Assembly: GCF_035083965.1 (NCBI RefSeq)
Contig: NC_089738.1
Coordinates: forward strand, 5,107,398-5,171,397
DNA length: 64,000 bases
Origin: Branchiostoma lanceolatum
Lineage: Eukaryota > Chordata > Leptocardii > Amphioxiformes > Branchiostomatidae
Direction: 5' to 3'
The notes beneath the pieces were generated by a model, which was not told the DNA's origin, made no database searches, and saw only the letters and a list, made by a program, of their open reading frames with translations. Below are positions 10,301-62,000 of the stretch, one piece after another. Both the position numbers and the translations under genes were made by a program. Numbering within the stretch: position 1 is the first letter of the stretch; the number at the start of each line of letters is the position of its first letter.

Positions 10301-11858
10301 TCGCGGTGGTTTTAAGTTCGCGATTGAACAATAGTAGCGCTACAGTTATAGGTGGACAAAACGTTTCGCGGTGGATTTAGGTTCGCGCTGAAAGTTCACC
10401 GCGAAAACCGCGAACATAAAGCCACCGCGATCATAAAGCCACCGCGAACATTTCTGCATTTACAGTATTTGATTTTTGTACCTTGCTTGAATATGCCTTT
10501 TTTTACGCTGCAAATATTGCGCACATACAATTTTCTATGTGACCGATGTTAGCACATCACCTGCCTGCCTTGTACATTTCAGGTTTACCATTGAAACAAC
10601 GGGAATCGTCTCTAATGAGCTGAAGAAGACATACATGGACTCTACCCAAGTGGAGTACGTACATCCTGGCGAGTTGTTCATCCAGATCGACTTGAATGAA
10701 GCCTTGTCTGAAGACACGCCACAAGGGTACCTCCTAACGCGCAGCCTGTCACCTAAAGCTTATGTTATCATCGATACTGAATGTGATGATCGGGTATGGC
10801 CAGTATACACTTACATCTGATTTTGGTATGATGTGTGTTTCCCTTATGACCATAGTTCTGTCTCGGCTACAATTTCTTGATGTACAAATTTCTACATTTT
10901 GCGTTGTTCTTGACAGGATGCCCATGAAGTCTGGGTTGAGTGGAAGACCAAGAACAACATTTGGCTCAAGATTCCATCTTCTGTCTGCCAACACTTCGGT
11001 CTTGAACAAGACACAAGAGTGAAAATGGAAGTTCAGTTCAAGCTCGATCGCGGACCAATGGTGAGAGTCTTTGACTTGCCTCAAACAGTGATTTATGCAT
11101 TAGTTTTGTTTTAGCTCTTTCTTGATATAGAGGTTTTTGTTCGTTTTAAGGAATTTGCATTATGTATTTCCCTTTCCAGTTATTCCGACATTGTGCTGTG
11201 GACGCCATAAAAGATTTGACGGTGGTGTTTCCCCCGGATGTCTCCAAACGGTTTTGGAAAAACCTCCGCAAACAGAGCCCCAGCCCTCCACATACCCTGA
11301 ACGACATGCAAAGGGAGGCATTTTCTAAAATAACAGGTTTGTTCAATAGATATCTATACGGTCTTATTTTTGTGGACATAATTCTCCCTCTATTTGCTGT
11401 TTGTCCATGCACTGTAAATCTAATTGCGATTTTGGTATCTGTGAGTAACTTTTAATAACATTATTTTTGCTGTTTTTTAGCCCCTACAGAAATCGAAACC
11501 CCACCTGTACTCTTGATTGGGCCATTCGGCACAGGGAAAACCCACACCATAGCAGCGGCTGCTTCTGCTGCAGCCCAACAGCCCGGGTCCCGCATTCTCA
11601 TCTGTACGCACTCTAACAGTGCAGCCGATCTGTACATAAGAAACTTCCTGAAGAAGGACGATATTCCTGGTAAGTAAACAAATCTCTGTCGTACTTTTTT
11701 TCAAAGAGAAGAAAAACAGTCCTGCTGTAACTCTTTACAAATGCAAAGTTATAGAGACTCACTTATTCATCTTTGCCGCTTTTCAGTCCTTTCACTGAGG
11801 CGGGCAGCAGCAGAACACAATGGACTATTACTCCTACTGCTACTACTACTACTACTAT

Positions 11859-11890
<32 letters not shown>

Positions 11891-14764: not shown

Positions 14765-14813
<49 letters not shown>

Positions 14814-15007
14814 TGTGTTGTGTGTGTACGGGTGTTGTGTGTGTGTGTGTGTACGTGTGTTGTGTGTGTACGGGTGTTACGTGTGTGTGTGTGTATGTTT
14901 GTGTGTGTACGTGTGTTGTGTGTGTACGGGTGTTATGTGTGTGTGTGTACGTGTGTTGTGTGTGTATGGGTGTTATGTGTGTGTGTGTGTGTGTGTGTGT
15001 GTTTGTG

Positions 15008-15052
<45 letters not shown>

Positions 15053-37041: not shown

Positions 37042-40000
37042 ATGGCGAGACCACCAAACTTTCCTCTGCCTTTGGGACACTTTCCAGGTGGAATGTTTCC
37101 CTCCCCGGGTCCATTCCCGCCCGGACTTATGTTCCCAGCAGTCCCTGGCCCTGCCTTGATCCCAGGGATGGGTAATTTCGTACCCAGACACGGGTTCAGA
37201 CCGCCGTTCCTCCAACCGGCTTCGTTCGGGCCGGGTGCCCTCCCTCCCCGAGGACCTCCACCCCGACACGCCGGCCCCATGGTACCGGGACAGGGCCGTG
37301 GGACACCGCCAGGACCTCGGCCCAGAGGCCCATGGGCACAGGAACGAAGGCAGGGCAACTTTGCTCAAGGGAACAGACAACAAAGAAAGGTTGAATGATG
37401 TTAACGTTTATTTTGCATGCTTCATCGACATGTAATTTACAAGTCATTGATAATTTTAGGATTGAAGAAAAAAATATGTTTGGATTGTTATAATATACTA
37501 TGATGATGATGATATATTTTTGTACACATGTATAAGTATATATATTGTATACATACCATAATATCAATGATATTATGATTTACTAAAATGCCTTTTAGTG
37601 TTGAAACACTGATATGTTTGTGTTTTTTATTGAAAATGTGATGGAGCCAGCCATTAGCAATATTAGGGCGCTGAAAGTCATATATTCAAAATCAATTTTT
37701 TTCTGATTTCTATCCATATTAAGTTTAGATAACACTATCCCATCGCATAGCGACCATCATCATGATCATGGAGCAAAAATGTGATGTCGTTGTGTGGTGG
37801 GAACTCATTGAAAATCTGAGTACTTGGAGGCCAGCCATCATTTCAAGTCTTCCGAACATGCACGATTCTGACCGATAAGTCCCGAACGCTTCCGAAGAAA
37901 TAATCACGTGGTCATGGCTCAATTTCTTGGGCATTGTGACGTCACGCGGCCGGAAGTTATCGAAAATTGTCGACAGAAAACGGTTACGGCTGGATTAATT
38001 TGGGCTGATTTTTTGGGGGACCCAATAAATGAAATACTCCTTTTTTGCCTTGCGTCTGTGCTATCTTTAAACGCCTTAAGTCTGAAATAATGATGCAGAT
38101 GTGCTAATATAGGAAAGTAAATGTAAATTTCAACCTCACCAAACAGAATTGTTTTCCCAAGAATATTTCAAGTTTTCCCCTCTGAAATCGCTTAGGGCAC
38201 CTTTAAATAACAGCAAAACTCAGGCTGTTTAGTCTGACGGTTGTATAATGAAGATCCAATCCAATCCAATCCATATATAAATATTGTACTGTAATACAAT
38301 AATTGTATACAATTTGTATACAATGTACTAACGTTATACCATGTTTTGATGACTGGCTTTTCCTTTAAAAAACATTATCATCCACAGTGCCAATATTGAA
38401 TTTCTATCTGCAATGCCTGTTGGAGACTTACATACAGTAATGTGTTCCTTATTCTTGAAACAGAAGGCCCAGCTGAGTAAAGACGACACCCCATTCTACT
38501 GTGATTCGTGTGACAGAGGCTTCAAGACCGACGAGTTGCTCAAGAAACACTGCGAGACGCATATACAGGTACAGAACACAACCCTGCACACACATGCACA
38601 GCATGTGTAACATTTCTAACATCAATCATGTATCATTGTCTGTAACTGTTGAAGATGTATGTAAACCCCCGGAGTTTGCGTTATACAGACTAACATATAC
38701 TAAGCTACTTAACAGTTTTTAAAAAAAAATCAGATGTAGAAGTGTACTTTGAAAGTTCAAATGCAAGTACAATCACCACGTCAGCTGCAACAAAAATCCT
38801 GTTTTTAGGAAACCTCTCTGTATTGTCAGTCAAACTTCTTGCCATCAATGAAATTGATAACATATTTTTTGTTCATGTTAGTGTTTCCATGAAGGCTGTC
38901 CGTATGTAGCAGCAGAAAAACTGGTCAAGCTGCATCATAAACTGGTAAGTGTTAGAACTGAGAGTGTTCTACATGTGCTTATAATAGTTATTGTGTATGT
39001 GTAAGTACAACCAAGATTCTGAAGTAGGCCTGGTAGCCTACGCAAAACTTGACCAAGCCCATTCTCTAATCATTTAAATATGTTCTGGTGTTTAAGAAAA
39101 TGAACTTTTGATAATGGCAGCACATTTCGTCATTTTTGTGTACTACGTTCAATGTTTCTTGTTTTGGCTCTTTGATGTTTCTCTGTGTTGTACTATTATA
39201 GTGTTTGCTGCTACATCATTGTACTAAAAATACTTTCCACTTTCCAGACACATCTTTCCAGGTTTTCTAAAGCCCTGAGTAAACTGGACACACCTGAAGC
39301 CATCGCGAAGTGGCGTGAGGAGAGAAAGAAGTAAGATGCTCGGACATGCAATAACTTTCTTCAATATCTTTTAGTTTTACCAAGAAGCTTTTGATCATAC
39401 CTCTGATTCATCTCAAGTTAAGAGATCAACTTCAGAAGGACCAGAGAGCTGATTGAAAACTTGTTAGTAAGCACTTGAATTTGTGTATAGCACAGCTGTG
39501 TACCTAAACAAATTTTAGGTACAGGTACACTGGTTAAGGTACAGGTCCGGACCTGAACCTGTACCTAAACTACCAATGGATTTGTATATGTACCTAATTG
39601 ATTGTATCCATACTGTATCGGTACACTGTACCGGTACACAGCTCTAGTGTATAGCATATAAAATCTTTATGTTATTAATTACCATCACAGGTGAACTTTC
39701 ATTCAGCTAGCACCTCTTAACCTTCTCCCTGCTGCCTAGAATAGAAAACCAATAGAAAATGTGATGCCAAACAGCTACTTCAGTGTGCTTAAGTTTAAGG
39801 AAAATATTAATATATTGTTTTTATGTTTTTAAGAATGCAAACCAAACCTGTTTTCTTTCTGCTACAGAAACTACCCTACTGTTGCCAATGTTGCAAAGAA
39901 GGTGGAAGACATGAAGAAAAGAAGAGACAGAGGAGAAGTACTGGACACAAGAGAGTTCGGGTAAGAAGTACACTAGTCTTGAAGAGATAGGGTTCCTTTC

Positions 40001-43000
40001 AGATTTATAATCACTTGATAAACAGGTTATGTGTGGATTTTTAGAAAAATAGCTGTTATATTGATAATAATTGTCATGGCTGTGTACTTAATAGTTCGGT
40101 GTACTTCTACTTGTAGTTGTAGGTACATTTTTTTCATTTCAATTTATACTGTAATTCTTGATTCGTTAACGGTAACAGTAGCTACTTCAACAGTCACTAG
40201 TCAACCGCTAGAGTTTCATCATCAGAAATATTTGATTGCTAGCATTTGAGACAGTGATCTTTGTTCCCACCATTAGAATTAGATGCAGCGAACTACTCAC
40301 TTTTCCCCAAACCGCTAAGATTACTAACCGCAATATTAAATTGATTTACAGTAGATATCTTGTTTTTTTCAGGGCTTTTTAATTCTAAATGACAAATCTC
40401 TTATATTTTTTCAGGAGAATGCGAGGGAGGGGGCAGGGGAGAGGTAGAGGAAGGGGCAGGGGGAGGGGGTTTGGACGTGGGGGGAGGGGAAGTTATCACC
40501 ACCACCACCAGCAGAACTTTGACCAATCCCCAGGCAGAAAGAGGGGACAACCAGATGTGGAGCATCATGGGAGTCCTCAGAAGGTGGCAAGGCATGCTGG
40601 GTCTGATGTCACACCTGGTGGAAAGTCACATGACCCAGCAGCTGACCCCATGGCTTATCTGATAGACGAAGGGAGCTCATCTGGTGAGAAATATAGTTCA
40701 CACAACACGGTGTATTCCATATCATCCGAGGTACCGGCCCAATAGCGGTTCGTATTGCCTGAATGCCAGAGGGCTATGTGACCCACGGGAGGGCCAAGAC
40801 CCGAGGGTGATGCGAAATACACTGTGTTGTATTTATCAATGTCATGCCCACCCGAAGAAACAGACATTTCAATGCGAAATGCGCCAGAATTTGAGAGAGT
40901 TTTGTGTCCTCGAACAAAAAATCTTGTAATAACATCGATTCCAACCTCCAAATCAGATATCCACAGTGGCGCAACTGGCGCACTCGAAATGCATTCTAAA
41001 TATTCTATGGACATATATTATATATACGAAAGTTATTGCCCGGTCCAGAACATAAAGATAATTACAAGAGTAGTTAACCCTTGTTATCCATTTGACTTTG
41101 TGCCACAAAACTTTGCGTATTTTGACCACCACTATGTGATGTTGCACAAAGCTTGCAATACGAGCAATCGCAATGATGTCACAGTGACTCAGTGGCAGGC
41201 AAAAAGCAGGTGGTAGACAAAATATTAATTTACCTTTTGATCAATAACTTGATCTGCGGACTTAGAAATTAATTAGTGATTGGATCAGTTGATTTCCTTG
41301 TAGGCACCAGTCGTCGAAAACCCCAGATGTAACGACTTTGTTAAACAAAAAAAGCTAATTGATTTGGTTATGAACACTACATTTGTTAAACAAGAAAAAT
41401 ATGATTAATGCATTTCAAGTACAAAAAATGTTATTGTCTATAGGTTTCGGATCATTTTAATATTGTTTCATTTAATCATATTGATGTACATGAGGGTACT
41501 GTAGGGTAAATCATATTCCAATGTGTACAGATTCGGAGCCAGCAGAGGTACCTTCCCATCCTGCCCAGAGTGCTGCCACCCCCCCTGCAGCAGTGGTCGT
41601 ACCCAGACAGGTGACATCAGGACTGGGCAGCCTGGTGGCGGCGTACGGGGGCAGCTCAGAGAGTGAGGAGGAGGGGGAGATCAGGGGTAAGTGTCTAGAG
41701 TGAGGAGGAGGAGGGGGAGATCAGAGGTAAGTGTCTAGAGTGAGGAGGAGGAGGGGGAGATCAGGGGTAAGTGTCTAGAGTGAGGAGGAGGAGGGGGAGA
41801 TCAGGGGTAAGTGTCTAGAGTGAGGAGGAGGAGGGGGAGATCAGGGAGAGTGAGGAGGAGGAGGGGGAGATCAGAGGTAAGTGTCTAGAGTGAGGAGGAG
41901 GAGGGGGAGATCAGAGGTAAGTGTCTAGAGTGAGGAGGAGGAGGGGGAGATCAGGGGTAAGTGTCTAGAGTGAGGAGGAGGAGGAGGAGATCAGAGGTAA
42001 GTGTCTAGAGTGAGGAGGAGGAGGGGGAGATCAGGGGTAAGTGTCTAGAGTGAGGAGGAGGAGGGGGAGATCAGGGGCTAGTGTCTAACTTTGGTCTGAA
42101 AGCAGGCTACCATATTTTCTCGAATAAAGTACGCACTTTTTTAACAATCAAAATTCAAATTAAATATATCACAAGTCATTGCCAAAGTCAGGGTGCGTAC
42201 TTTATAGCCTATAGGTTATTGCCTGGAAAATTCAAGGGGACCTCAAACCCTTGCTCAGTCAATCCAGGAACCCAGCTGTGGTGCAGCAATGCATGGCTCA
42301 ATACCTGCTAGTTTGAGAAGTTTGCAACTTGTCGTAGACAATTTCTCAAGTTTGCAGAGATGATACCGGCAGGGTATACATGTGTATAAGAGAATTTTTG
42401 ATGAATCTAAGGAATGGCATTATGTAGAAGTCGTTGATTTAAGCGAAATTACCTGGAGTTAGTATAGCGTATAGTTATTAAGTGTGACTTTGCTGTTTAA
42501 AAGTTACATGCTGTTATAAAGGAGACATAACACCTACATGTATTGTTTGATCCGAGGACTTTTACTTGCGGAATGTTAAATTTACTCATCATGTTTCTTG
42601 TGGCACTGCCAACAGAACATTAATTTTTGTTTCTTTTATTTTGACTTTGATCCTTTGTTACCATCATTCAGTTTGGATACACTGTACTGCTCTTGAAGAC
42701 TTTCAGGACAGAGTTATTTAATTGATGAAATCTTGTCTTTTCTACAGATTCCCCTGTTCCAAAGCTGATACAGTCATCCCAACTACCAACACGACAACCT
42801 TGGCAATCTACAGACTCGCACACTGGCAGTCAAGATAGACGATGGTCGCATCCAGAGGGAAGGAGAGGTGCACCATGGGAAAGGGGAAGGGGCAGAGGTC
42901 GTGGCAGGGGCAGGGGTAGAGGTCAAGGTCGTGGTGGCAGTGGGAGGGGACGTGTAGCGCCCGATCAGCAGCACCTTAGGAAGAGACGGGCGACACTTTT

Positions 43001-44147
43001 GGAAATGGTCAGTCATAACAGACTCAGTAGTAGAAGTGTGAAGTTGTATCCAGCACATTGCCTTTTCTGTGCAAAATTGTGTATGTTAAGCCAGACCATT
43101 TTTTTCTTTTGCTTATCGGAATCGCCTCTCTTGTTTCTCCCATTTTTGAAAAAGATAAATTTTTTGTCACTATTGCCTTTCACAAATTTCTACTCACGAT
43201 TTTACTATTTGTTCAGTTGTTATTACTCAATAGCCACCAAAATTAGATTATAAAGGCAAGCACATAACTAAAAAGTGTGGTTACATTTCATCATTAAGTT
43301 ATAGTTTTTCATTTATTACAACTATTTCTCAATATCAATTTGATATACAATATTACATAGCAAAAGGTAATTTTGTTACTCAAATTCTAGTACTAGATCA
43401 AAGAAAGGGATTCATTGCATAAAATGAGCCATACAAAGCTGAAACTTGAATAATCCTCTTATTCTTTATGTTATGTAAACCCATGTCGTCACCCCAAACT
43501 ATTTGCAAGAAAATTATTTGTATTTTTTTTCACCCTGTCGCTCCAATTTTTTGCTGAAAAAATCAGAGAATCAACAAATAAAATTGGTGTGGCCTTAACC
43601 ACTTAATGTGTATGGTATTAAGCATAAAATTCTTGTGTTAGATGGCAAAGACACCTTTAAAAAGTATCTAGTACATGTATCTTCCATAATGTGTTGGATG
43701 TCAGCATTCAACTACAATGTACTGCGGTACTGGAAAAAATCCGTAAATTTATTCTACACATGTTTTAAGAAGAGAGAAGAAGCACCTACATTTTAGGTAA
43801 AAAGCATAGCATAGTTCTCTTGTTATTCTCATGGTATTCTAACTTAATACATTTAGCCCATGTTGGAAATTATTATGCATTAAACTTCATTGTCGCTGTT
43901 ATTTGTTGTTACTTTCCAGCTGCTAGCCCCGGACGTCAGACATGAGCGTAACGTGGTGTTACAGTGCGTGCGATACGTCGTCAGGAACAAGTTCTTCGGG
44001 ATCGGAAGTACAAAACCTGCTACTGTTACCTCACAAACTGATGTCTCAACACAAGAAGACTCTACGATTGAAACAAAGGAATTCAAAACTGATGATGAAG
44101 CCAGTACCCTGGTGGATAAACAAATACAGAACACTGAGGATCTTTAA
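37042..44147 (+). CDS. NUFIP1: NUFIP1, FMR1-interacting nuclear protein and snoRNP assembly factor
   Basis: Nine exons (37042-37389, 38464-38568, 38882-38944, 39248-39330, 39868-39960, 40415-40683, 41531-41686, 42748-43007, 43920-44147) give 534 residues; human NUFIP1 has 495. Features in order: a Pro/Gly/Phe-rich N-terminus; a C2H2 finger (YCDSCDRGFKTDELLKKHCETH, where C-x2-C-x12-H-x3-H is seen) with CFHEGCPY after it; the conserved NYPTVANVAKK to DTREFGRMRG segment, which in human NUFIP1 is the PEP region binding the snoRNP core; two RG-rich stretches; and a conserved C-terminal block, LLAPDVRHERNVVLQCVRYV. The protein links box C/D snoRNP assembly with the R2TP complex. Exon 1 ends at a weak donor, GTTGAA. 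The donor of exon 41531-41686 is tandemly copied (see repeats). Confidence 0.94.
37640..38205. repeat. Dispersed repeat 'R2' in NUFIP1 intron 1
   Basis: It shares GCAATATTAG, CCCATCGCATAGCGACC and GTGATGTCGTTGTGTGGTG with the copies at about 26089-26410 and 54832-55326. No open frame. Confidence 0.65.
39505..39650. repeat. Dispersed repeat 'R5' with GTACAGGTCCGGACCTG core (also 50405-50680 and 61475-61545)
   Basis: The core is a near palindrome, GGTCCGGACC, inside repeated GGTACAG/CTGTACC motifs, with the tail GTACCGGTACACAGCTC shared by the first two copies. All are intronic. Confidence 0.65.
40700..41060. repeat. Dispersed repeat 'R1' (further copies near 48990-49320 and 50880-51120)
   Basis: Shared pieces are ATACACTGTGTTGTATTTAT, AATGCG(A/C)AATGCGCCAGA, TTTTGTGTCCTCGAACAAAA and GCACTCGAAATGCATTC. 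The copies lie in introns of NUFIP1 and the calpain gene. Frames running through it are not conserved, so it is treated as noncoding. Confidence 0.65.
41659..42088 (+). repeat. 40-bp minisatellite copying the 3' end of a NUFIP1 exon with its splice donor
   Basis: The unit (GAGTGAGGAGGAGGGGGAGA then TCAGGGGTAAGTGTCTAGA) comprises about 27 bases of exon plus the GTAAGT donor and first intron bases. The authentic donor is at 41687. Further intact GTAAGT copies stand at 41727, 41767, 41807, 41877, 41917, 41957, 41997 and 42037. One copy near 41847 has lost ten bases including the donor, and the last, at 42077, is mutated to GGCTAG. Use of any downstream copy would bring an in-frame TGA, so the first donor must normally be used. 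Confidence 0.93.
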
Positions 44148-45062
44148 GTTTACCTTTGGTGTCCTCTCAGACATGCACGCTGTCTTGAGAACCACAATGT
44201 CTTCCAACCATCTTTTGAGTTATTTTCTTAACAGTTTTAAGTTAAAGGAAAGGCCCGTACATGTATATATGTAGAAGATACAATATTTTTAAGTTCTGAT
44301 ACGTGTGTATTAGCGATTTGTACTGTACGGTCAGGGTGCTACATGTAGTAACCTCTGCTTGGAGAATAATTTGCATGAGCACAATGTAGACTGAGGCTTA
44401 ACAAATTTTTGTGAGATGACAGTGATGTATCATGTACAGTTGGGACCAACTCTACTCTTGGTGTCACAGGTTTTTGTATGATGACACTGTAAATTTCATC
44501 TCAACTACCCTTATTGGTGATTGCATCCAGAAAAGCTATTAGATGCACTAATTCCATGTTGCATAGGAGTTATTAATTTTTTCTGAAACTTATTTCACAA
44601 TTAACAGGTTTATTTCGTAATATGACAGGCAGCATTCATGGTTAAAGAAATTAAAGGTGAAACCTTTGACAATCCTGAAATGTAGCAAAGTCAGTATAAC
44701 AAATGTAAAGCTAAAGCTGAGAGACAAGATTTGTTGTGTGATGTACATACAGTCATCTTTGCAGTCTTAAGCAATATGAAACAAAGAACGCATAAAAGAC
44801 ATGTCATTGTACAGTGCTCTTTTTTTATCGCTGATTTTTGTGTGTCTGGTAAGTTTTCTTTGGCATTTTCTCTTGATTTCTCCTATGTTATATTTTGTAG
44901 TTGCACTTTATCTACCCCACCTAGATTTAGGTTTTATCAAAAAGGGCCTCTCTGTCCTAAGTCCTGAATTACCAGTAGTAAGAAAGCAAAATGCCTTTAC
45001 GTGAATGGTGGGGCTACAGGTGAAAAAGCAAATATCTTCTGTATGAGAACAAGACTCCTCAT

Positions 45063-45206
45063 GGATTCAATCATGGTACTGAAGCGCCGACTAGTAATCG
45101 GTGACGGTACTGCAGGCTAGGAACGGTCGAAATGCCCTGCGACAGTTTCAAGCTTGCAGTACCGTCAAGGATCACTAGTCGGCGCTTCAGTACCATGATT
45201 GAACCC
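45063..45206. mobile_element. Short inverted-repeat element downstream of NUFIP1
   Basis: Arms of about 55 bases (45063-45118 and 45151-45206) share GATTCAATCATGGTACTGAA and the following GCGCCGACTAGT in inverted orientation, with a 32-base loop. It is noncoding, about 0.9 kb past the NUFIP1 stop and possibly inside its 3' untranslated region. Confidence 0.75.
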
Positions 45207-47701
45207 AGTTTATTTCACAAAACTCTGTTACTAGGCCAGTATACACTACCTATAATTTTTATAAGGAAATTCTAGTGATGTAGGACAGATTTAACAATTA
45301 AGATTTATCTAAATGCCAAACTCTCATAGCTTACTCTCTGTAATTATAGTATAATAGCCCTCAGTTGCAATAGTTGGATAACCCTGGCTCTTCTTTTTTT
45401 ACCTCCAAAATCAATAAATCAAACTTTCCTACTTCTCAGTACATTGTATTTTGAGGCCTACTTCACTACTACAAGAGTTCCTCCAATGAATGGTGGGGAA
45501 AATACGCTTGTTGGAGGGTAATGACTGATTAGGATGACTCCAGGCTAAGTACTAAAACTAAATGAATCACACATCAATGAAAACAATAGACTTTCAACAA
45601 ATAAAGCCCACATTATTTAATGACCACATCATAAAGAATGGTGCCAAATATACTAGACATACTGTGCAAATGTGAAATTTCATGCAAAGTGAAAAGACCA
45701 CATTTTACATCACAAAGAAAAGTTCAAGATGCATGTAATAGGAATTTCTAGATTTATACTAAGTCTTGATACATGTAAGTGGAATAAATCAGTGGTGCAA
45801 AATCACATTGATATTACTGTTCTTAGTCTTGTAGATTATGTACTGTTAGTCAATGCAGTTGATATTAACAATCTTAAAGACCCTTCTTAATAACATTTAA
45901 TCTACTTGATTATCCTCCAAATGTTGTTCCATTACTAAAAATCTAGTGTAAAATGATAGAACGCAACAAAAGCTGATAAACAATAAGTCAAAGCACTTTC
46001 GTTCAAGTATGCAACAACGGCTTAACAAACTGAAAAGTGACACTGCGATGAATGCATACGTGTACATTTTCACATTAACACAAAATTGTATTTGTTGTTT
46101 ACCATGTGCATTATTGACCTACATCTAAATGTGTCAAAATATCAAAATCCACATAAAGACTCAACAATTCTACAATCATACAGAATATCGTCTAACAGTT
46201 AACTACCAAATTAACATGAGCACACATACATATACTGTGTTTTTCCTTTTTTTAATTTAAGTCTAAAATCTTCATTCACTTTCTGAAAGCTACCAATCTA
46301 AAAACACCTTTAGTTTAGGTTTAGTTTCAACCTAGAATTTAATTAAAAATACAGAAAAAAAGGAGGCATTAGCGTGAAATCTAATGAATCTTAATACTAG
46401 ACCCAATGTAGATCTTACACAATGGTATCTTTTTTTTCAGGGTTTCCCCATTCTATTAGTAGCATTATACATGTACTTAGTATACCAATGGAGAGAGATT
46501 GCAAAACATTCAACAGTTACTGTAGAGATACCTGTAAAATTACAAATGTGTCAATAGTACGTAAATGCTAACTATTGTCACCAGAAAAGGTACAAAGCCT
46601 GCAAAAATAGAGCGATTCTCTTCTTGTTCAATTTCTAAATTCTTTGTCGAAATGACAATCTTTCATGCAGCTCTTGGAATGTCTAGTTTTCCACAACAAC
46701 AATGAATCTGTTTCTTTCCTTTTCCCTATTTTCATAATCATACCAACACCACACAATAGCCTTTATGAACCTAAGTCTATTAAAATGTAGTTACGTGCAT
46801 TTTCATTTCCACTGCCATAAAGAGCAAGTGATTTCATCGAGACAATAAACTAAAAGACAAACGTTTTTAGATTGGAGGGACTTTTGCAACATTTTTCGAC
46901 ATCAAACCAGTTAGGTTCATGAGTAAAATCAAAAATGAAAACGACTTGTTTCAAAAACAACAACATAATGTTCAATTTTGTAGGCATCCATGATTGAAAG
47001 TTTTCTTTTAAATTCAGTTCCTCTCAACAAAAACAATCGAAGTCAAGGCAACACACATCTTCAATTGGCAAATGCCCTCAAACATTTTACAATTCTGATT
47101 TGATAGACATCTTTGGAATCACAGCCAAACGCAGCTTTGGTGCAAGCAGTAGAGGTGAAAGACTGCAAGGTATAGAGCATCTTATTCATGTAGTTCTAGC
47201 TTGTTATGGTTTCAAGGCATTATATTATATATTGCTTATAATGAAAATATTGTGTTAGCATAGTTGCGCAGTTTTAGTAGAGATTCAGTGATTCTGCCAT
47301 GCAAAATTCTGCGAAGTTCGGGGGAAGAATTTTTGCAACAACTTCACAGCTAAATACATGTATCTTTTCTACAGGACATACAAAATCTTTAAAACACAAC
47401 AATTTGGTAAAAGACATCTAGTACATACATCTAGCTAAAAAGATTGAAAATCAAAATTGTCATAACAGCTAAATATGAGATTTAGACTAAATAGCCAGCA
47501 AGTCTGCTTGTAGCTTCTCAGTACAAAACTATGCTACAACATAAAAGGGATATGAATGACATAAAAGATATAAAGGAATTCAAATACCAATAAGACCACT
47601 AAGACAAAGAAGTTCACCAGAAGCACAACGTACTGCAAAAATAGTACATAAAAGAGGCAATAAAAGATCAAACTTTGAAAGTGGCTTTAAAGTACATTTC
47701 C

Positions 47702-47949
47702 TAAAGCCCCCCTCTCACTGGACCTGCGGAACGCTGGCGGCGTCGCTACGGCTGATCGAATTGACATTAAGCACTCAACGAATTTCATCGACAAAAAATG
47801 AATCTTTTTAAACTTTTTTTTTTGCCTTTTTGGTCATACTTGTACGTTTAGAATGATATTCCCATTATAAAGTCAAGGGTAACACAAATCCAGTCTAGAA
47901 TGCAGCAACGCAGCCAGTGTGCTGCGGGTCCAGTGAGAGGGGGGCTTAA
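47702..47949. mobile_element. Harbinger-like MITE, copy 2
   Basis: A 242-bp element (47705-47946) has the same terminal inverted repeats as the copy at 4800-5051 and is flanked by TAA on both sides. The interior matches the reverse complement of copy 1 (shared GGTCATACTTGTACGTTTAG segment). It lies 84 bases past the calpain stop codon and so is probably transcribed within the calpain 3' untranslated region. Confidence 0.88.
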
Positions 47950-48029
47950 GTGGAAGTTAGTATATAATAAAGTGGATGTTCGCTATCTCGCTACACCATT
48001 TTAATGAGCTTAGTGAGTCGTTGTGATAT

Positions 48030-49976
48030 CTAGATTGCCGTCAGGTCGTCGTGACTGGTGACGGAGACGCTGAGACTCCCCGTCGCACCCACTCCCCCGT
48101 CCTTGTCCTCAAGGTGCACCACGTGCTGCTTGGTGGAGTTGTTGACCTCGCACATCATGGTCGCTTCACCCAGCAGGTCATCCCTGATCAGATCCTTCTT
48201 CCAAATCTGGTATAACAAAGTAGTAAAATTGAGTTAAGCGATTGGAGAAAACTACAGTCTGTACATTTATTAATTTATTGGTTCAACATGTTGCCAGGGT
48301 TACCCAACTAGCCAGAAGCGAACCCATGTGCGGCCGACTGTAGGTTTTTGGACCATCGTACACCGGGACATGCCCCTACTCTTTTTCGAAAGGTGTGGTG
48401 GGTTCTTTACGTGCGCGGGGTGTGGCTCTCCCCAAACACGGGACCTCCATTTAACGTCCTATACGAGGGATGTCCCTAACCCTAGATGAGCTAGGTACTC
48501 ATTTACACATGAGTAAAGTGAGGAAAGTCATGTTAAGTGCCTTTCCCAAGGGCACAACGTCAGGACGCAAGTTCGGACATGTCTCTGGGCACAACTCGGG
48601 ATTAGATCCTGGGTCCCCTTGTTTGACAGCCGCGCGCTCTACCACTTGCGCCACAAGATGCCACTGCAGTGTACATTTACTGCTGTCAGTTCACAATATT
48701 ATTACAAAAAGTAAACATCTGAAATCATTTGTTGATCGTTTCAATTCTGATTTTGACTGCATCTAATTTTGACTGGGTCAAAATATCAACATATTTGTTG
48801 ACTACACTTTGCATATGATAACTCACAGTAGATGCATCAGACGTTTTTGCTTGGTCATAGAAACTAAGCACTTGGTGGACAAAGACACAAAACACTGTCA
48901 TCTCAGGAGATAGATACTGAACGGAGCAAATTATGTATAAGTCAAGGGTATAAAATTAAATATAGAATAAAACATGTTATCGGGCTGAAACCTATTGGGA
49001 GAAACGGAATACACCATGTTGTATCTTATCTACATGTCTGTCATACCCATGTGAGAAAACACACATTTTAATGCATAATGCGCCAGAGCTACATGTAATT
49101 GTACTGGCAGAAGTTGAGAAAATTTTGTCTCCTCAAACAAAACTTGTTCAGTTCTAGCGTCCAAATCCAGAATTCAAATTTTCAAGAGCGGCATACAAGA
49201 AGTCCATTGGAATGAGTCCATGAAAGTCACTGTACATGAATGTACATGTCTGATTAAAGTAGAACCTTGTGTGATCACCCAAAATATCAGCTGGTCCGAA
49301 ACATGTTGAAAGTTTATGACATAAATAGTTGAGATACCTGAATCTTGATGGGGTTTCTGGGGTCCTTGCGGTAGAAGATAGCTTCTTCATCATACTCCGG
49401 GCTGCTGCTGTCCTCAACGACCCTTGTTTTTGCTGACTTGTTTCCAGACTTGATCACCGCATACGTGTCTGCAGTCAGTGTTGAAACAAAAACACTTTCA
49501 GTACTAAGCATAAACATTACAATTGTAAATCTACTATACAGTAACTTTAATATGTAAGCATGTATACAAACATAAAAGTTTAGGGCAACAACAGTAGTGA
49601 CCAATCAGCACCAAGGACGGAGACAGTAGTAACCAATTAGCACCAAGGTCAGCAACAGCAGTGACCAATCAGCATCATGAAGAGCAACAACATTATGTAT
49701 TAACCAATCAGCACTAAGGACAGACACTGTCCTCCCTGTTCTACACTAACTCTCACAACTCGAAGGTACACAATGTAGATTGCTGCACCTACTTTGAAAC
49801 TTAAGAAGGGCGCCAGTTGTTTTTTCTTAAAATTTAGGTTCAAGCACTATGTAAAGAAAATGTCATTTTTCAGAAAGTATAAAATTTCTACAAGTTATCA
49901 TTCAAGGTAACAAGGTGTTGATAAAAGAAATCGGTGTTGAGAAAAACTGACCTATTTTCTTGTAAAAAGTTCCTTT

Positions 49977-50019
<43 letters not shown>

Positions 50020-53000
50020 GCACACACAGACACAGAAAGACAGAGACACAGAGATAGAGACACAGAGAGAGTTTAATTGATTCATGTTCCAAGACTCCCA
50101 AATATCTTTTTCGATTTGAAAGAATCAAATTTGTAACACCAGAAAGAATCAAATTTGTAAGCTCTTTACGGCTAACATCTACAGAACATAATTCCACCAG
50201 GGTACAGAATTCCGCCACCCTGAAAAAGATACGTCCAAGCAGATCTCCAACCCAACGTCCATGAGTAAAATGAACTCCAGTGTAAATTGTATATCTAAAC
50301 TGGCATATTTGGGGGCTGCTGCACTAGAGATCTATCTGCCCCACAGTTTTTCAAAGTGGCAGATTTATGTAACCCATTGGACAAATTTTAACTAAACAAA
50401 ACAAATCTAAGGTACAGGTCCAGATCTGAACCTGTTCCTAAAATACTTGTTCAGAAAATGGTAGATTTTCAATATTAGGACAAAAGCATGTTCAAACTGG
50501 TAACAACATAATATCTAATTGTGCTAGGTATTATTTATAAAAACACAGATGAAAATTTGGCTATCCCGAGTCAGGCTTGACCTGATTAGTACCAGTACAC
50601 CAGGGTTCAGGTATTTTGGACCTGTACCTAATTGATTGTACCCGGTACTGTATCGATACAGTGTACCGGTACACAGCTCTACCGGTGGACTAATGTCAAT
50701 GGAGATACATGTAACATGGATAGCGTGAGAAACTGACCGTGTTTCTTGGAGAGACCAGTAGCAGACAGGAGATGGACACTTGTGACAGCCTGTGGGTAAC
50801 CGAGGAGTCCTGAGAAACAGGAGGCCGTGGGCTGGTCCTTACACAGCTCCCTATGTGGGAAGAATTATCTTAGTCTTGGCAGTACACATTGAATACAACA
50901 TTGCATATTCCGTATTGCCCAAGATTTTTGTCCTCGACCAAAAAACTGTAACAACACTGATTCCAATCTCCATGGACGGTATTTAAATTTTCGACAGTGC
51001 TGCAACCGGTGCACTCGAAATGCATTCAAATTTTTTTACGGATGCCTGCATGTGTGATAAAAGTGGAGCCCTGTGTGATAACGACAGTTTAATTGCCCAG
51101 TCTGAAACACCAGTATCAAACGTTTTTGCGGCACAGGTTTTGTAAATTCATTAGTACAGGTGTCATAGAATATAACAGATAATGACATCTTTTCTGCTAA
51201 CCACAACAAACAAGGGTCACTAGCAGGGTTGAAAAGACACAACATGATTGTCACAACTTAATACGTTTTTTTACCTGGCTTCATACAAAATATGATTTAT
51301 CTATGTCCTACTAATGAGATTTTAATCTTTTCAGATCTAGAAAGACATGTACATGAAAACAAGAAGTAGGACTCGTTTTACCTTTGATGGTGTTTGCAGT
51401 TACAAATTACAATCACTAGGGGGCATGACAGCAACACCTTTGTACTTACTTGAAGTTGTTGTCAAAAGAAGTAGGACTCGTTTAACCTTTGATATCTGCA
51501 GTTACAAATTACAATCACTAGGGGGCATGACAGCAACACCACCGTACTTACTTGAAGTTGTTGTCAAAAGAAGTAGGACTCATTTTACCTTTGATATCTG
51601 CAGTTATAAGTAACAATCACTAGGGGGCATGATAGCAACACCACTGTACTTACTTGCAGTTGTTGTCAGTGTCAGTGAAGATCCTCAGCATCATATCGCC
51701 CTCCTCGTTCTTGTCGAACGTAGTTGGGATGACGACGTAGCGGCCGCGGCGCAGCTCGGTGCGGACAAAGTTACTGCGAGTGTTGATGTAGACGGAGTCT
51801 GCAACTTTCTCCTTCATGGTGTGCAGACGGTACTTCCTGTTCAGTTCAACCTACAGAAGAATTTTATTTTAGGGTTCCATTTGAAAAAGAAACGTGTCTG
51901 AGAAGTTATTGCATATGGTATCTGGACTACATGGCAGAATTCTATTGCATAAATTGAGAATGTTTCATTGATAAATCATAAGAGCAATTCTAAAACCAGA
52001 GCACTTTGTGTCAGCCAGGTTTCAGTGGTCTTAAAAGTGATTTCAGAAAGTTAAAAGTCTGTCTTTCCAATCCCCCTTCTCAAAAGAACTGGCTGTGATC
52101 TTATGTGTTTATACCATGGATGTTTTTAAATGTAAACTTTCAAGTTATATAAAGGATAACTATAAGTCTTAGAGTGATACGTTAAATCCAACATGTTGAA
52201 TTACCCATTGACAAATATTAGTAACTATGTCTACTAGTTAAATTCTTTTGGTATCAAATTGTTTGTTTGTTTGCACGTATAGTTGTACTTTTGTTGTGTC
52301 AACAAAGATTGTGTCATCGAGTCAATCTTTTTTTCACAAACTTAGCTCAGCTACCTGATTGTGACAGTTGCCATACTTAAGCTTTAATACATATACCCGT
52401 GAATAGTTTCATCAGGTTGGTATAAGTCACTGAATAACAAAACTTGTTGTACACAACCTAGTCTTTTAATCAAACCAACATTTTGGTCTGTCACCCTCCT
52501 CAGGATAATTTTGACTGGTTCACATTGCACTGCAACTACATGACATTGGATACTATAGGTGCTGCTGCTTATCAATGTGATACATGTGAATGAAAAACAA
52601 AAATGGCCTGCGTGCTGATTTGAGCTTATCATGAATAAACAAAGGTTCAAACAAAAAATACAAAGAGAGTTGCCTACCCTGTAGACAGCAAAGCCGAGGG
52701 TCAGATTCCCCTGTTTCCCCTCCTTGCGGGACTGTCGTGTGTCGGGCTGGGACAGGGAGATCAGAACTGTGTCCTCATCCTTCTCCACATCAAACAGGAC
52801 CTGTGGGGAGGGGGGCACAAACACACACATCATAGATTAAAATTTAACTTAGACAGCCTCTTCTTCTTGCAAACATTACAGTACTATATACTACATGTTT
52901 GTATTATAATGATACTGACTTGAATTTGGAAATAAAAATGGTCATCGTAGCTTAGTTACTCAAAATAAAGTTGTACCTCTTCTTCACAGAAATTTTTACT

Positions 53001-56000
53001 CTTTTACAGGAATGTGTAGAAAAGGCCTACAATAGTCTGTTTCCTTTAATTATTACAGCAATATGTTATTTCCAAAACACAATCCAATTTTTATAATAGC
53101 ACAGAACATTTCTCTTATCACTAAATAATATTCTATCATTTGACAGTAATAAATTTATAGATTTTAATGAACGGTTGAACTACTTTGAGAACATACACAA
53201 CATTGACTAACTAAAAGAACAAATCATAAGGAAAATGTGTTTTTGTTACTGTTAAAAGCCATGCACTGTGCAGTTGTGACTTTTCTACAAAATTTAGTAA
53301 TTACAAAATAGTATTATAAAAGATCAGGTATTGATTTATAACGTTGGGTAACATAAATTCGGGATTTTTCCGATAATGGTTGACTGAAATCAATCTAGCA
53401 GAACAATAAACCATCCTTTTTTTCTATAATTCTGTCAGTATCATGCACTATCTTTGCACTAATCATATATATGGTAGATTTTGTCTCTAGTCGTGCTGAC
53501 ACCATAATATTTCAACTTGAAACTACCGTCCGCCGCACGCACAATGACGGTGCTGTCGGACAGGGGGGCACATTAATTCGGGAGAGAAGATTCGTCTTGA
53601 ATATCTTACCGCTAATCACATTTTATACAGCAGCTATTCGTTCCATCCTTGGCTTGAGGAGAGTGCTATGGATATAGACGTGTCCAAGTAAAAAAAATAC
53701 ACGAAAAAACGGCCGTACCGCACACATCAGGCCAGTTCGGGTACAACCCGTGTGTTGAGTCGGTAGAACTTCACTCAAAGTCGGCCCATCGTCATCATCG
53801 GGCAACGTGTAACGTTACATTATTCATGGGAAGTTAGCTGGATGCCGTAGCAATGGTAATACTACTATGTCCATGTGTTCCTTGTTGTGTTAGGAGCAAA
53901 CTTTGAGGAAAATATCTTCCTCAGTCCACTATCAAACGCAGCATTTAGACAAAAAAGTGTTCCTCACAAACCTTTGTCGTCTGCTTGACAACAGGATTCT
54001 GGTTAACAATATGGCGGCGGGAAAATACACGTGCCGTAGGTTGTAGCAACAGAGAGGAGTTTTGATGATTGATCACACTTAGAATCCAGTTGCAGGTTAG
54101 CAAAAGAGATTGTAATAAGTTGTAAATAAATGTGTTGAGCAGGAATTGGATGTGACATTTTTCTTATAAACCAGCCGACAACCATGTTGTTTAAGTCTCC
54201 CACGAAGTCCTCAGACTGTTCCAATAAGGGACGGAGAGTTTTTGACCTCGTCGCCTTATAATCCATGCTTATCGAAGCTTTTCAGACAGTGTTCTGAATA
54301 CGTAAGTCTGGCAGGTTTGCATTTCTAGCGGTATTACTTATGTTGCATCTAGCACGTATCCTTAAATACCCCGTTTTCGAAAAATCCCGAATTTAAGTAC
54401 CCCGCGAATTTAGGTTACCCAACGTTAGATGACCACTTTCTAAAACAATTTGTTTTCTTCCAAAAAAATTCAAGTTTCTTAATTCAAGGTGCATTTGACA
54501 ATGAAATTGATCGATATTTTTTTCTTTGTGCACTTTTTTTTTTTTAGTACAATCTCTAGAAAATGTGCAGTAGAAGCACCAGGCATGACACATCACAAAT
54601 ACAGAATAACATAATCATCTAGTATACTTAAACATACATGTGTACATAAACCATGATCATAACAATAACTCTACACTAAGACTGTACATGTGCACCTAAC
54701 TCTACAACATAACCCAGCACAATCCACCATGTTGCTCACCCCTGCATGTGACTTCACCTTGGTCTCCAACTTTCTTACTAAAAATAAAGACTTTTCTCAG
54801 TTGGCCGGTTAGTCCTGATATTTGTGCAGCTTAAAGGAGCCTAAAGCTATTTCAGCCCGTTGGAAGTTGGATTTTCAAATTCTAGTCCTTCTTATATTTA
54901 CAAATATATAAAAATCACTACATGCATTTAAGTTCGCATCGTTTTTATTTCACGCTAAGGGGAAAATGGAGTGTTCACGGTGGTTTGAAGTTCGCGGTAG
55001 TGCTATAGCCACATACTGCTACAGTATTGGACAAAAATGTTTGCGGTGGTTTTATGATCGCGGTAAGACGGTCGCCGTGAAAACAGCAAACATAAACCCA
55101 CCACAAATATTTCTGCATAATAATATAATACAGTATCCCATTGCATATCGACCTTCATGTAGCAAAAGTGTGATGTCGTTGTGTGGTGAGGACTCATTGA
55201 AAATATCTGATATTTTGGTGGTCCCAAAATATAAAGGACATCATACTAGACTGTTGGTATCTTACAGATTACCATATCCAGAATATTTCAGTTTTAACGT
55301 TATGAAATTGCTCTGGGCTCCTTTAACAAATAAAAGACGTAATATTTGCAGATTTGTGCAAAAGCCCCCAATATTCAACCTAAAACCGTAAAATAAGCCA
55401 TGCATGCCACCCCACATCCACATTTTATTGTTGATTAAAACCTTCTTGGTTTTCTGCGTGGTCTTTCTCGGCACAACGTCGAACACAAACTAGAAAGACA
55501 GACAGAGACTTCACAGGTCAGTTAAACAGACAAGACAGACATGGAGGGAAAATATATAATAGGTTAAAACATCAGCAGCTGGAAAATATGAGGGCAGCCA
55601 TTAGACAGTCACACACAGATTGAACACAAAACAATTTGACTTAAATGTATATAGCATTTATTTATACTCTATATTGAAATGAGAGAGAAACGAGAAAAAT
55701 CCTTCCACATTCATTTCAAATTAATTTTTTAGACCGCATGTATCACTTTAACAGCAAACTTTAAAAGGTATTCCAACTATTTCTAGTCCTATGCCTTGGA
55801 CACTTCAATGACAGTTTCTTGGGGCCAATATTTATTCATTACTTTACCTAAGACTTAAATGAGAGAAATTTCAGTTCAACTGAACAAACATACTGATTGT
55901 TAAGTAGCTTTTGTGCTTTCTTTATACATGTAGTATCAAAAAGCTACGCTGATGAAGGTTAGACATACAGGTAATAAAGATACGAAAAAAACAGTAACAA

Positions 56001-59000
56001 TCAACACGCAACTAGATTTTCTGGATTTCCCAAAATCATATCCAGTACTGCATGTTGCTTGAATAACTGTATTTTAGTGTAACTACTGGTCCGGGATAAC
56101 TATTCTTCAAGTTACTAGTACATTATTTTTGCTTCCTTTCTATAAAAGGTCCAAAACCAATCTCAATTCAAAGCAGGTTGTACAATGCAGTTCCAATAAG
56201 AAATATAAGAAGCTTGAATCAGACCTGTGGGTTCTGAAGGTAGGTGTCCCTGTTGTTCATACAGCCGCCGGCACGGTTATGGGCAGGGTCTCCGGGAGCG
56301 CTCCTCCAGCGGGAGAAGACGCGGGACTCCACCCACGTCTTGTGGATACTGAGGAGGGACGTGTTGATCAGGCGACAGATTCCCGCGTCCGAGAAATGGG
56401 TGATCCAGTCGTCAAAACTCATCCTGGGGAAGACAGCACAAAACGTATAACCACCGTTAACATGACTGTAAAACATGACTGTAAATGCAGAAATGTTCAC
56501 GGCGGTTTATATTTGTGTTTTTTGTGGTGAACTCTTTACCACGAACTTAAAACCACAGCGAAAAGCCATTCCATTGTGTGACTGTGTAAGTGCTACTATT
56601 GTTTCAAACGCGAAGTGTGAGTGAGTGAGTGAACTCAAAACCACCGTGGACACTCCATTTTCTTTCTACAATGAAATTAAATCTCCGCAGACATTTCTGC
56701 ATTAATTTTACAGTAGTCCACCAGATTACATAATTCCGCCATTTAAAAAAACAGAGGGTTTGAGAGAGCTCTAATGCGATAACCCCCAGGTATGCACAGT
56801 CCAGATACACAGGTCCAGGAGTGCATTAAACGGGGGGACGTTGGGTTGGAGATCTGTTTAGACCAATCTTTTCAGGGTGGCGTAATTATGTACCCTGGTG
56901 GAATAACTTAGTTTAAGTTAGTACTAGATATTACACATTGAAACACTTTGTATTTGCTCAATCCTTTATTTGTTGTTAAAACTGGCCAATAGTACAGCAT
57001 ACATTTTGTAAGCTCAGCAACCAACAGCTGTATACCAGCTTATAAAGAGTTGTAACAGATTTTTAAAATTGTTAAAATAAACAGAACAGAGAGAACACTG
57101 ACCAGAACTCGCCATCATCATCTTTAACCAGCCCCAGCTTTTCCTTCTCAGAACTGCTGACCTGCTGCCACTCAGGAGAACTGTTGGGGGGAACGCAAGA
57201 AAATTCTTATAACAACAGTACATAATATTCATTATCTTCAGTCACATTGTGTAATCTTCCAGTATGAATCATGTCTGGTTACACATTCTAATGAAGGTAA
57301 AAGGTAAAGGTAGCCTTTTTGAGGTCGTAGGGGCAGTTGTGCCATCACATTCCACCGCCTTTTACCTCCCAAACCAAAGTCAGGTACCCATTTACACCTG
57401 GGCAGAGAATGGTGACATGACAGGATTCAAACCCAGGACCTCTAGGTTCTGGGCCAAAACACCCTGCCGTTAGACCGCACGACCCCAGGCCAATAAATAA
57501 TTATAGTTTACCTCCAGTCAGCCTGGCATTCTGACACATGAACTCTGTCCTAAGACCTTTGACCCTACTCACTCATCACTCCATATGGTCCTCTCCACTC
57601 CTTCTGTGTACAATTACTCTAAATACTAACACTAGTACTGCTGTGTACTAAATCTGTGCACTAATACTCACACACGAACTCTGTCCTAAGACCTTTGAAC
57701 TCTGACCCTACTTACTCATCACTCCATAAGGTCCTCTCCACTCCTTCTGTGTATAATTACTATAAATACTAACACTGCTGTGTACTAAATCTGTGCAGTA
57801 TTACTGATACACGAACTCTGTCCTAAGATCTTTGAACTCTGACCCTACTTACTCATCACTCCATGGTCCCCTCCACTCCTTCTGACCCCAGGGGTTCCTC
57901 ATCCGGATCATGTAGATCTTCTCCTGATTACCCAGGAGCCCACTCAGCATGCCGGAGTCCCCGACCTTGACCTTCTTGACTGCTGTGACACTGTAGGCAT
58001 GACCTTTGACCAGGCCCATCTCTGTACTTGCCTCCATTTCATCTCTAGAGGTCACCTAGAGGATAAAATGCAAATAGCCTCGTGTATAACTGAATTTCAA
58101 GAATCAAATCACATTGTAAGGTCAAGCATGAAAATTTTCTACACAAAAAGTTTAAAATAAAATACACCTACATGTATTGAGTAAATACAACTAAATACAA
58201 ATGTCGTGTTCCTTTACACAGATGTAGCAACCAAGGGCTCGAAAGACTGGGTGCATGTGCACCTGTGTGCACCCAAAATTGGAGCCTTTGTACCTAATTT
58301 TTGACTGTGGGTGCACCAGTGCACCTATATTTTTGTAGGCTATAGCCATAGGGTACAGGTACAGTATAACTACTATAAAACAGTGACACTTAGTAATACA
58401 TATTACTAAGAACATGAAATTTAAGTATCAGAAAAAGTAATATAAAGTCGGTATGCCTAAACACCACAAACCACCGCAAACGACCACAAACGACCGCAAA
58501 CGGGTCTAATATGCAGTGTACATGGGCAGGGACCTTATGTCACGCACTGAATACATTGCATATGCAATAATGAATAAAAAATATGAAGCAAATTAAGTGT
58601 TTACCGGTTAAATCAAGTTATTCCGCTCATATCAAGATCGGAAGAATTTTTGGCGGCCATGTTGGATCGTCGGTGTTCGGGTTCTGCACTAGTGGAGAAC
58701 TCTTTGATACCTTTTCTCTAGCTTGACAGACGACGAGGCGATAATTATCGATAAAAAGTGGATATTGTTGGTAATAGATTATAGTACAATGTAATTGTAT
58801 CATTATAAAGTCATAAGACTTGTACACAGAGTGTTTTCAGCTTCAAATACAATTACGATCCGGCCAAAAATTCTTCCGATCTTGATATGAGCGGAATAAC
58901 TTGATTTAACTGGTTAACACTAAGATTTGCTTAGTATTTTATTATTATTTATACATATTTTCAACATATACAATGTATTCAGTGCGTGACATACGGTCCC

Positions 59001-62000
59001 TGCCCATGTACACTACATATTAGACCCGTTTGCGGTGGTTTGTGGTGGTTTGTGGTGTTTAGGCATACCCATATAAAGTTTGTTGTATATTGTTTGATGA
59101 TGAATTGTTTATATTTTTATTTCATGTTGTGTTGTGTTGTGCACACAAAATTTTTTCTGTGCACCTTAATTTTTAGGTTAGGTTCACTAGTGCACCTTTT
59201 CCCAAAAGCTAATTTCAAGCCCTGCAACCTGAAGGCATACTTACGTAGCAGTCTTGGAAAGTTTTAAAATCATCATGAAATATTGAAAAAGAAAACCTAC
59301 CCTGATACTACAGGTGAGAAGCGATCCTCTCTCGGCCGCCTTATGCATGACCTTGAAGAGTTTCTCCTTCTTCTCCTCGTCCTCCCGATACCCCCCCTTG
59401 TCCAGAGCGATGGGCTCCGCCACCCCCCCTGTGAAATCCACCAGGGCGTCCAGTGTGTTCCCACCCTGCAGGGCCTCATAACATCCAGCAAGCCTAGTGG
59501 AAATAAGTACATTCATATTATAAAATGTCATACATGAAATCTTTATTGACACAACAAGTACTGTGATTGTGAATTTTGCAAGGTCTTCTACAACTACACA
59601 TGGATCAAATAACATTTTGATGATACTACAATATCATAGAAACCACTTCATGTCTTAGTAAAAATTGTAGCTATATCATTCATATTCCGAAAACATTCCT
59701 GTCCACTCTTGAAGCTGACATATGAAATATATATCACGTATGCTAAAAGGTACAATATTAGGAGCATCTTCTGTCAGTAGATACATGTAGCTTTGAACAA
59801 TACAGTTAGATGTACATTTTTTAGGTTAGGTGTGACAGGTTGTTTAGTGTAAATATAATAAGACGCTACTGCGCTGCGTGCCTGCGAAGCTGGTGTGTTA
59901 CGCTATGTATATATGGATACAGAATTCAGATCAGGTGGCACATACCATTTTACCACCTAGTTTCATCAGTAACTTAGTTAAGGATTAATGTTGATCTCAT
60001 TGTTTGAATAATCAAACATCTCCCTATCATATTTTACAACTGTTACAGTAAGTTGTAAAAAATTAGAATGTCAGGGGCTGGGACAAAATACACAGTCAAA
60101 ATTAAATGTCTGCCTGCAACAAGGCTGTTTTAGAGAAATAAACAACAAACAATAAACAAACAATACTTACTTGGCATAAGCCTTCTCCAGCAGTGAGCTC
60201 CACAGCTCATTCTGGTCCTTAGACCTGTTGTAGACCAGCTGACCATTGATCGTTGGAAGAAGGTCATCGACAACGACCTCTGTCCAGGTTCCGAACCGCC
60301 AGAAACGGAAGCGGAAGATGCCCTGGTAATTCTCGGGATGTTCAGGGTCCCACTCTTGGTCCTTATAGTCGGGGATGACCTGAAATATGCATTTATTATT
60401 TTATCATATGTATCATTTATGGTGAAATGATGTCAATTCAATCACTGGTCATTTGGAAAACTGTATCCAACTTTTGAACATATAACATATATTACATTAA
60501 TTTTACAGTTGTCATTGTCATCTTTCTTTTGAAGCTACACGTCGTCTACATATTTATAACAGTAATTCTTGAAATTTTTGAGCTTGTTTAATTTGTGTTC
60601 CCAGTTTTTGCAGTGACCACTACATGTAAACTACTGGGAAAATGTTTGTTTCCATTACTGTACAGTATGTGACTTTATTTTTGTTAAAAGTGCAAATTTA
60701 AAGTTAACATTGTGAATACTCCATTGTTTACTTTCATTATTAATAATACCACAAATTAAAAGTGAATCAACCCAAAATTACAGATATTTACAGTACACTG
60801 TATGTAGCAATGTTTTATAGGCTTGTCATCTAATAACTGACCTCCTTCCAAAGATCTTTCTCTAGAGTGAGGCTGGCGACGGCAGCCACGAACCAGCAGT
60901 TTCCCAGCTGCCCCTGGTTCAGGTCATGTGCCGACACGCCCTCCACAAACAGGCGTGGGTTGTCGCAAAGCTCCTGCAAACATACCACATGTTACAACTT
61001 CTCACCAGCAACAATATACATTATTCACAATGATTGTTTTGTAAAACATAAAGATGTATGTGCATGTAACATTGCTCGTATTCTAATGCTAAATTCTATG
61101 TGCATGTATTACAATGACAAGACTTCCGACTTATGGTATTAATGCCAACTCATAGCCAATAAGTGCTGTATAACTAAAATCCGGGCCTACACTGGACTTG
61201 TACAAACGGTTACGTTACGTTCATTAGTAAAAAAAAACTCAGGACTTGCGAAAAAGAATGTCTCACTTATATTCTCCTTTTTGTTCTAAACTATCTAAAA
61301 CCTTCAACAGATCGTGAAGCTTGCACTGGAAAAAGACGAAAACATTTCCTGTTTTTGTGCTTAGGACTGAGCTTTTTGTGTTTGCTACTAACTGTATAAT
61401 AATTTTGCATGTATATTTTTCAAATTGTACAATGTATGTCAACTTTATGTCGACATAGAATCTTACATTTTGCCATGGGTTCAGGTCCGGACCTGAACAC
61501 CTGGACTTGAATCCGAACCTGAATAGCCAATACAAATCAGGTTCCAAAAGGCATGGGCAATACCCATCAAACCTTACTAGTAGTTGTTGCTGTGACGGTT
61601 TCTAGTTCATGCACTACTGTAGTTTAAAAGATAAGACTGATTTTTGTTTCAAGTACAATTTCCTAGTAGGAGGTTGATATAGGAAAACTAACTTCAGCCC
61701 TGATTTAACCAATGCCCGGAATGCAATCGTCTGCCAATCATCCCCTGACTTCAAGTGACATTAACAAGATCCCGGCTTTGTCTCTGTGCACATAAACATG
61801 ATATATGAGTCTGGCAGCCCTCGGTAATGAAATTGTATCCAGGATACAGACCAGACTGTACCCAAGTGGGACCAGGGTGTTCAGACTCCTACAAAATAAT
61901 TCAATCAACAACCCATTTGGAAAGCGGTCTTTGAAGCAATGAATACAATAAAAGGAACCAGCTATAAGAATTGTTTGCAAGATTTTGAACCTTCATCAAT

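Follow-up and report, generated by a model that had tools for sequence, protein, structure and literature searches.

Tandem arrays repeating exon ends and donor splice sites in a NUFIP1 gene and a calpain-5-like gene of Branchiostoma lanceolatum

The window, a 64,000-nucleotide stretch of the Branchiostoma lanceolatum genome (NC_089738.1, positions 5,107,398 to 5,171,397 of the forward strand), contains a NUFIP1 gene on the forward strand and a calpain-5-like gene on the reverse strand, and in these two genes three tandem arrays overlap exon ends. Positions are those of the window, and the arrays were delineated with Tandem Repeats Finder (TRF):
41531..41686, + strand, NUFIP1 exon (gene finder), the final 22 nt of which are the first copy of array 1
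41665..42087, + strand, array 1 in NUFIP1, 40-bp unit x 10.8, 92% matches
42748..43007, + strand, following NUFIP1 exon, hand-set; in frame with the first donor, spliced translation open
51361..51668, - strand, array 2 in the calpain-5-like gene, 102-bp unit x 3.0, 91% matches
51654..51850, - strand, calpain-5-like exon (gene finder, open splice), the final 15 nt of which are the first copy of array 2
57560..57884, - strand, array 3 in the calpain-5-like gene, 137-bp unit x 2.3, 90% matches
57853..58055, - strand, calpain-5-like exon (gene finder, open splice), the final 32 nt of which are the first copy of array 3

The spliced NUFIP1 product (partial, 7 exons, first donor used) is open up to its terminal stop codon, contains the Pfam NUFIP1 domain and matches the NUFIP1 chain 5l85_B. 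The spliced calpain (partial, 12 exons, first donors used) is open throughout, contains the Pfam calpain, calpain III and C2 domains and, among solved structures, is closest to calpain-5 (6p3q_A, E = 3.7e-137). By these matches, both genes are of animal type. The exon junction at array 3 is ungapped in the alignment to 6p3q_A; the structural alignments stop just short of the junction at array 2, the placement of which rests on the open frame and the downstream C2 domain. Elsewhere in the window, two neighbouring genes on the + strand, 3424-20647 and 23347-29804, show helicase features: the former has Pfam RNB and OB_HELZ2 domains in a 4-kb exon (15482-19396), and in the latter the features were judged from the reading frames alone.

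Exons were predicted with a small home-made gene finder with hand-entered weight tables, yielding 99 exons. The final list, which is approximate, combines 54 of these with two hand-set exons, for a total of 56 exons with 55 donors and 55 acceptors; the count of about 70 exons given in an earlier note on this DNA was not reproduced. Of the 45 dropped exons, 29 are antisense to a kept exon, two gave way to the hand-set exons and the remaining 14 fall in neither class. An array is met by six of the dropped exons: four at array 1 (three within decoy units, one antisense), one identical with the (AG)n array 49980-50071 and one antisense at 56459-56485. Likely exons absent from the list lie near 13270-13520, 37088-37399 and 55442-55489, and by eye none of them meets a TRF array; misplacement is probable for at least one donor in the list (35486), beyond which the reading frame continues open. 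One gene-finder peptide matched no Pfam families.

All three arrays are built in the same way: the last 15-32 nt of an exon, the donor and some of the intron are repeated head to tail. In the exon model, the real exon end corresponds to the first copy, and the others are decoy exon ends within the intron, most of them with decoy donors. Contrary to the proposal that the arrays are centred on 5' splice sites, the true donor lies close to one end, at 22 nt in the 423-nt array 1, 15 nt in the 308-nt array 2 and 32 nt in the 325-nt array 3, and the remainder is intron.

Array 1 consists of 11 units, counting from GAGTGAGG, and nine of these contain an intact GTAAGT, namely the true donor at 41687 and eight decoys. 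One unit is 10 nt shorter and has lost the donor, another has a changed donor, and TRF additionally detects a higher period of 190 bp in two copies; these features, found in one haplotype, are signs of turnover inside the array. The exon copy is the deviant one: at 37 nt, it lacks 3 nt. Array 2 has three identical donors (CAA/GTAAGTAC, the slash marking the exon end) spaced 102 nt apart, with first intron bases at 51653 (true), 51551 and 51449, and five acceptor-like sites with scores of 3.26-5.22 lie between and after them. In array 3, TGA/GTAAGT occurs at 57852 (true) and 57715, and TGA/GTGAGT stands at the matching place, 57572; both decoy copies have a 2-nt insertion in the exon-derived part.

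The three exon-overlapping arrays described in the earlier note are thus real, and all of them touch donors and none touches an acceptor, as the note had it; the further statement that exon interiors are free of arrays depends on the threshold and fails at a lower one. At a TRF score of at least 50, 26 rows merge into 20 arrays in the window, three of which overlap listed exons (three donors, no acceptors, none wholly inside an exon). When the score is lowered to at least 30, there are 68 merged arrays, of which 10 overlap exons, with three on donors, seven in interiors and still none on acceptors. An alignment of the 90 nt around each of the 112 ends of the 56 exons (among them one at a stop codon and one at the edge of the window) with the neighbouring 800 nt, amounting to 223 edge-sides, detects only the three arrays as strong boundary duplications (z 42-48). 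The next best edge-sides are two donors at z 5.1, one matching the following exon over 22 nt, the other giving a TAC-rich low-complexity match; no acceptor side among the 223 exceeds z 5, and the same alignment provides no convincing case of decayed boundary repeats at other exons. Self-BLAST, with 20 pairs within 3 kb, finds no exon-edge duplication besides the three arrays.

Arrays of this kind have been described in amphioxus. The paper on amphioxus globins applies the name 'mirages', which the earlier note also used, to tandem duplications of exon-intron boundaries, and cites Adh3. In that work, the BflGb6 array lies at an acceptor and the BflGb9 array at a donor, so both boundaries can duplicate; splicing is seemingly undisturbed, the copy number varies between haplotypes, and mirages are suggested as possible seeds of new introns. 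Units measure 150-160 bp in BflGb6, 157 bp in BflGb9, and 60 and 108 bp in PGBD5; papers that cite the original descriptions give 10-72 bp for Adh3 and also count troponin C among the amphioxus mirages. The arrays reported here are likewise minisatellite-like, head-to-tail boundary copies with similar unit sizes, many of them with splice signals, but they lie in other genes, NUFIP1 and a calpain-5-like gene, and, unlike BflGb6, all three are at donors. The anatomy is the same, with a unit that spans the exon-intron boundary, in agreement with the earlier suggestion of new members in NUFIP1 and a calpain. On the best reading, then, the three arrays are further mirages in two new genes, with two arrays in one gene.

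Judging from the DNA, it is highly probable that the arrays are exon-boundary-spanning minisatellites of the mirage type that arose by local duplication and persist thanks to the first donor, and that the excess of donors over acceptors reflects chance or survival, not a process aimed at donors. Local tandem duplication, and after it slippage or unequal exchange, would have given rise to the copies. The arrays would survive inasmuch as the real donor is transcribed first and is still attached to an intact exon, and the use of a decoy would introduce a stop codon and lead to the destruction of the message. Arrays at acceptors are predicted to be less well tolerated, because the decoys there would precede the true site. 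The simpler alternative offered in the earlier note, selection that tolerates only duplications downstream of a working donor, is the better fit.

A rival explanation, in line with the genome-wide process suggested in that note, is a mutational process aimed at transcribed donors, with U1 pairing, R-loops or slippage seeding the arrays; across the genome, donors would then greatly outnumber acceptors as targets. Such a process would likewise produce three donors and no acceptors, which counts against the reading preferred here, and in the exon list arrays touch three of the 55 donors compared with none of the 55 acceptors. At n = 3, however, the power is low (binomial p = 0.25, Fisher p = 0.24), and a preference for one kind of splice site cannot be demonstrated from so few cases. 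Random placement, a procedure that ignores the removal of arrays from coding sequence, puts on average 2.14 of all 20 arrays on donors (P = 0.36 for at least three); for subsets picked after the data had been seen, the probability of the donor overlap drops to 0.059 (five arrays with units of at least 30 bp) and 0.025 (the three long arrays alone). The joint pattern of at least three arrays on donors and none on acceptors, also picked post hoc, has P = 0.021 among all 20 arrays, falling to 0.006 for the five and to 0.0015 for the three. Exons contain only 69 array bases, whereas random placement predicts 509 (P = 0.008), a deficit to be expected if arrays entering coding sequence get removed; the number of arrays overlapping exons, three versus 6.1 expected, is not low by itself (P = 0.094).

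Published cases include acceptors, and when the three arrays are combined with the four published boundaries for which the side is readable, the tally is five donors to two acceptors (p = 0.45), with the side of the 60-bp PGBD5 repeat taken from unclear wording, and Adh3 and troponin C left out. The arrays also differ in the features through which a donor-aimed process might act. The sense strand of array 1 has a strong G skew (GC skew 0.82) and array 3 is skewed as well (0.49), and both contain two-tetrad G4 motifs (three in array 3), in keeping with such a process, but array 2 has neither skew (-0.04) nor any such motif. By strength, the three donors rank 8, 18 and 46 of the 55. Because the ranks and the base skew differ among the arrays in this way, no single donor-linked driver, be it U1 strength, R-loops or G-skew, is supported as fitting all three. 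With a non-significant 3:0 ratio, a published acceptor case in BflGb6 and no common donor-linked cause, the donor-only claim is not established, and a donor-aimed process appears very unlikely. The literature matches listed, which cover few subscription papers and so are weak evidence, include no genome-wide count of donor versus acceptor arrays in amphioxus.

A second alternative concerns the decoys, which might be used as alternative 5' splice sites, directing part of the message to decay or representing a step towards a new intron. Several observations are compatible with such use. The decoys are good donors, with scores of up to 8.23: in NUFIP1, four of the eight score above the true donor (8.23 versus 7.10) and the other four equal it, so that strength does not explain the silence of the decoys, a point that weighs against the preferred reading. 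The acceptor-like sites of array 2 lie between and after its donors, and the globin paper proposes intron formation for mirages. The human gene IFI6 (6-16), similarly, has a minisatellite that provides several splice donors, and is said to employ two downstream repeat units as donors, with three mRNA species; unlike in that gene, decoy use here would introduce stops. In human segmental duplications, variable minisatellites at exon-intron boundaries are described as altering gene structure, and the boundary repeats of the duplicated genes are said to be capable of yielding novel introns (PMC2812944); unlike the arrays considered here, these are reported from primate genes that were duplicated recently, and half of those repeats lie in coding exons.

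The consequences of decoy use were predicted by extending the exon to each of the 12 decoys (eight, two and two in arrays 1, 2 and 3) and joining it to the next exon. In the exon model, every one of the 12 introduces a stop codon, and, measured from the true exon end, the first stop lies 14 nt downstream in NUFIP1 and 1 nt downstream in each of the two calpain arrays; four of the 12 would keep the frame were it not for the stop, and in array 3 the exon-derived parts of the decoys are out of frame (+2 nt). The first copy in each array should therefore be the productive donor, although first-donor use is deduced from the sequence, which again weighs against the preferred reading. Given the stop codons, use of the decoys seems very unlikely. 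That misassembly produced the copy numbers or the arrays themselves is extremely unlikely: PGBD5 mirage copies do vary among assemblies (2 versus 7 and 3 versus 6) and the draft is said to contain one aberrantly assembled globin array, but the copies here differ by substitutions and indels, unlike a simple assembly echo, and the PGBD5 repeats were confirmed in re-examined sequence data.

That a 64-kb stretch contains three such cases, with one gene contributing two, suggests that minisatellites duplicating exon boundaries may be common in this genome and not exceptional. The decoys that equal or exceed the presumably used donor next to them are natural experiments on the choice among similar donors, and the same arrays bear on whether boundary repeats feed intron gain. 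A more far-reaching proposition, which we consider unlikely, is that boundary minisatellites in this lineage are biased towards donors genome-wide, either because a duplicated donor would do no harm as long as transcription reaches the true site first, whereas with a duplicated acceptor the decoys would precede the true site, or because transcription through donors would promote duplication. Were this true, the surviving arrays would form a permanent reserve of exon ends and donors from which new introns could be made.

Several other features of the two genes are of note. In NUFIP1, short G-rich repeats in two exons on the + strand (40425-40469 and 42882-42916) encode arginine-glycine runs, and downstream of the gene lies a near-perfect hairpin (45062-45207) with two 68-nt arms that are 88% complementary and 10 nt apart. 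An RNA fold hiding the decoys of array 1 is not supported, as all 100 shuffles of the region 41640-42100 fold better than the region itself (z +3.23). In the calpain-5-like gene, a 48-nt in-frame stretch between two exons (55442-55489, - strand) follows an acceptor-like site, resembles at its start the start of the next exon (VLFDVEK) and has a weak donor (GTTTTA); it may represent either a cassette exon or the start of an exon duplicated in part. A calpain intron also contains a long inverted repeat of ~620 bp (58450-59069), with arms of 43, 125 and 59 nt that are 83-97% complementary around a spacer; it resembles a foldback or MITE-like element, and its ends are the small arrays 58459-58502 and 59028-59057.
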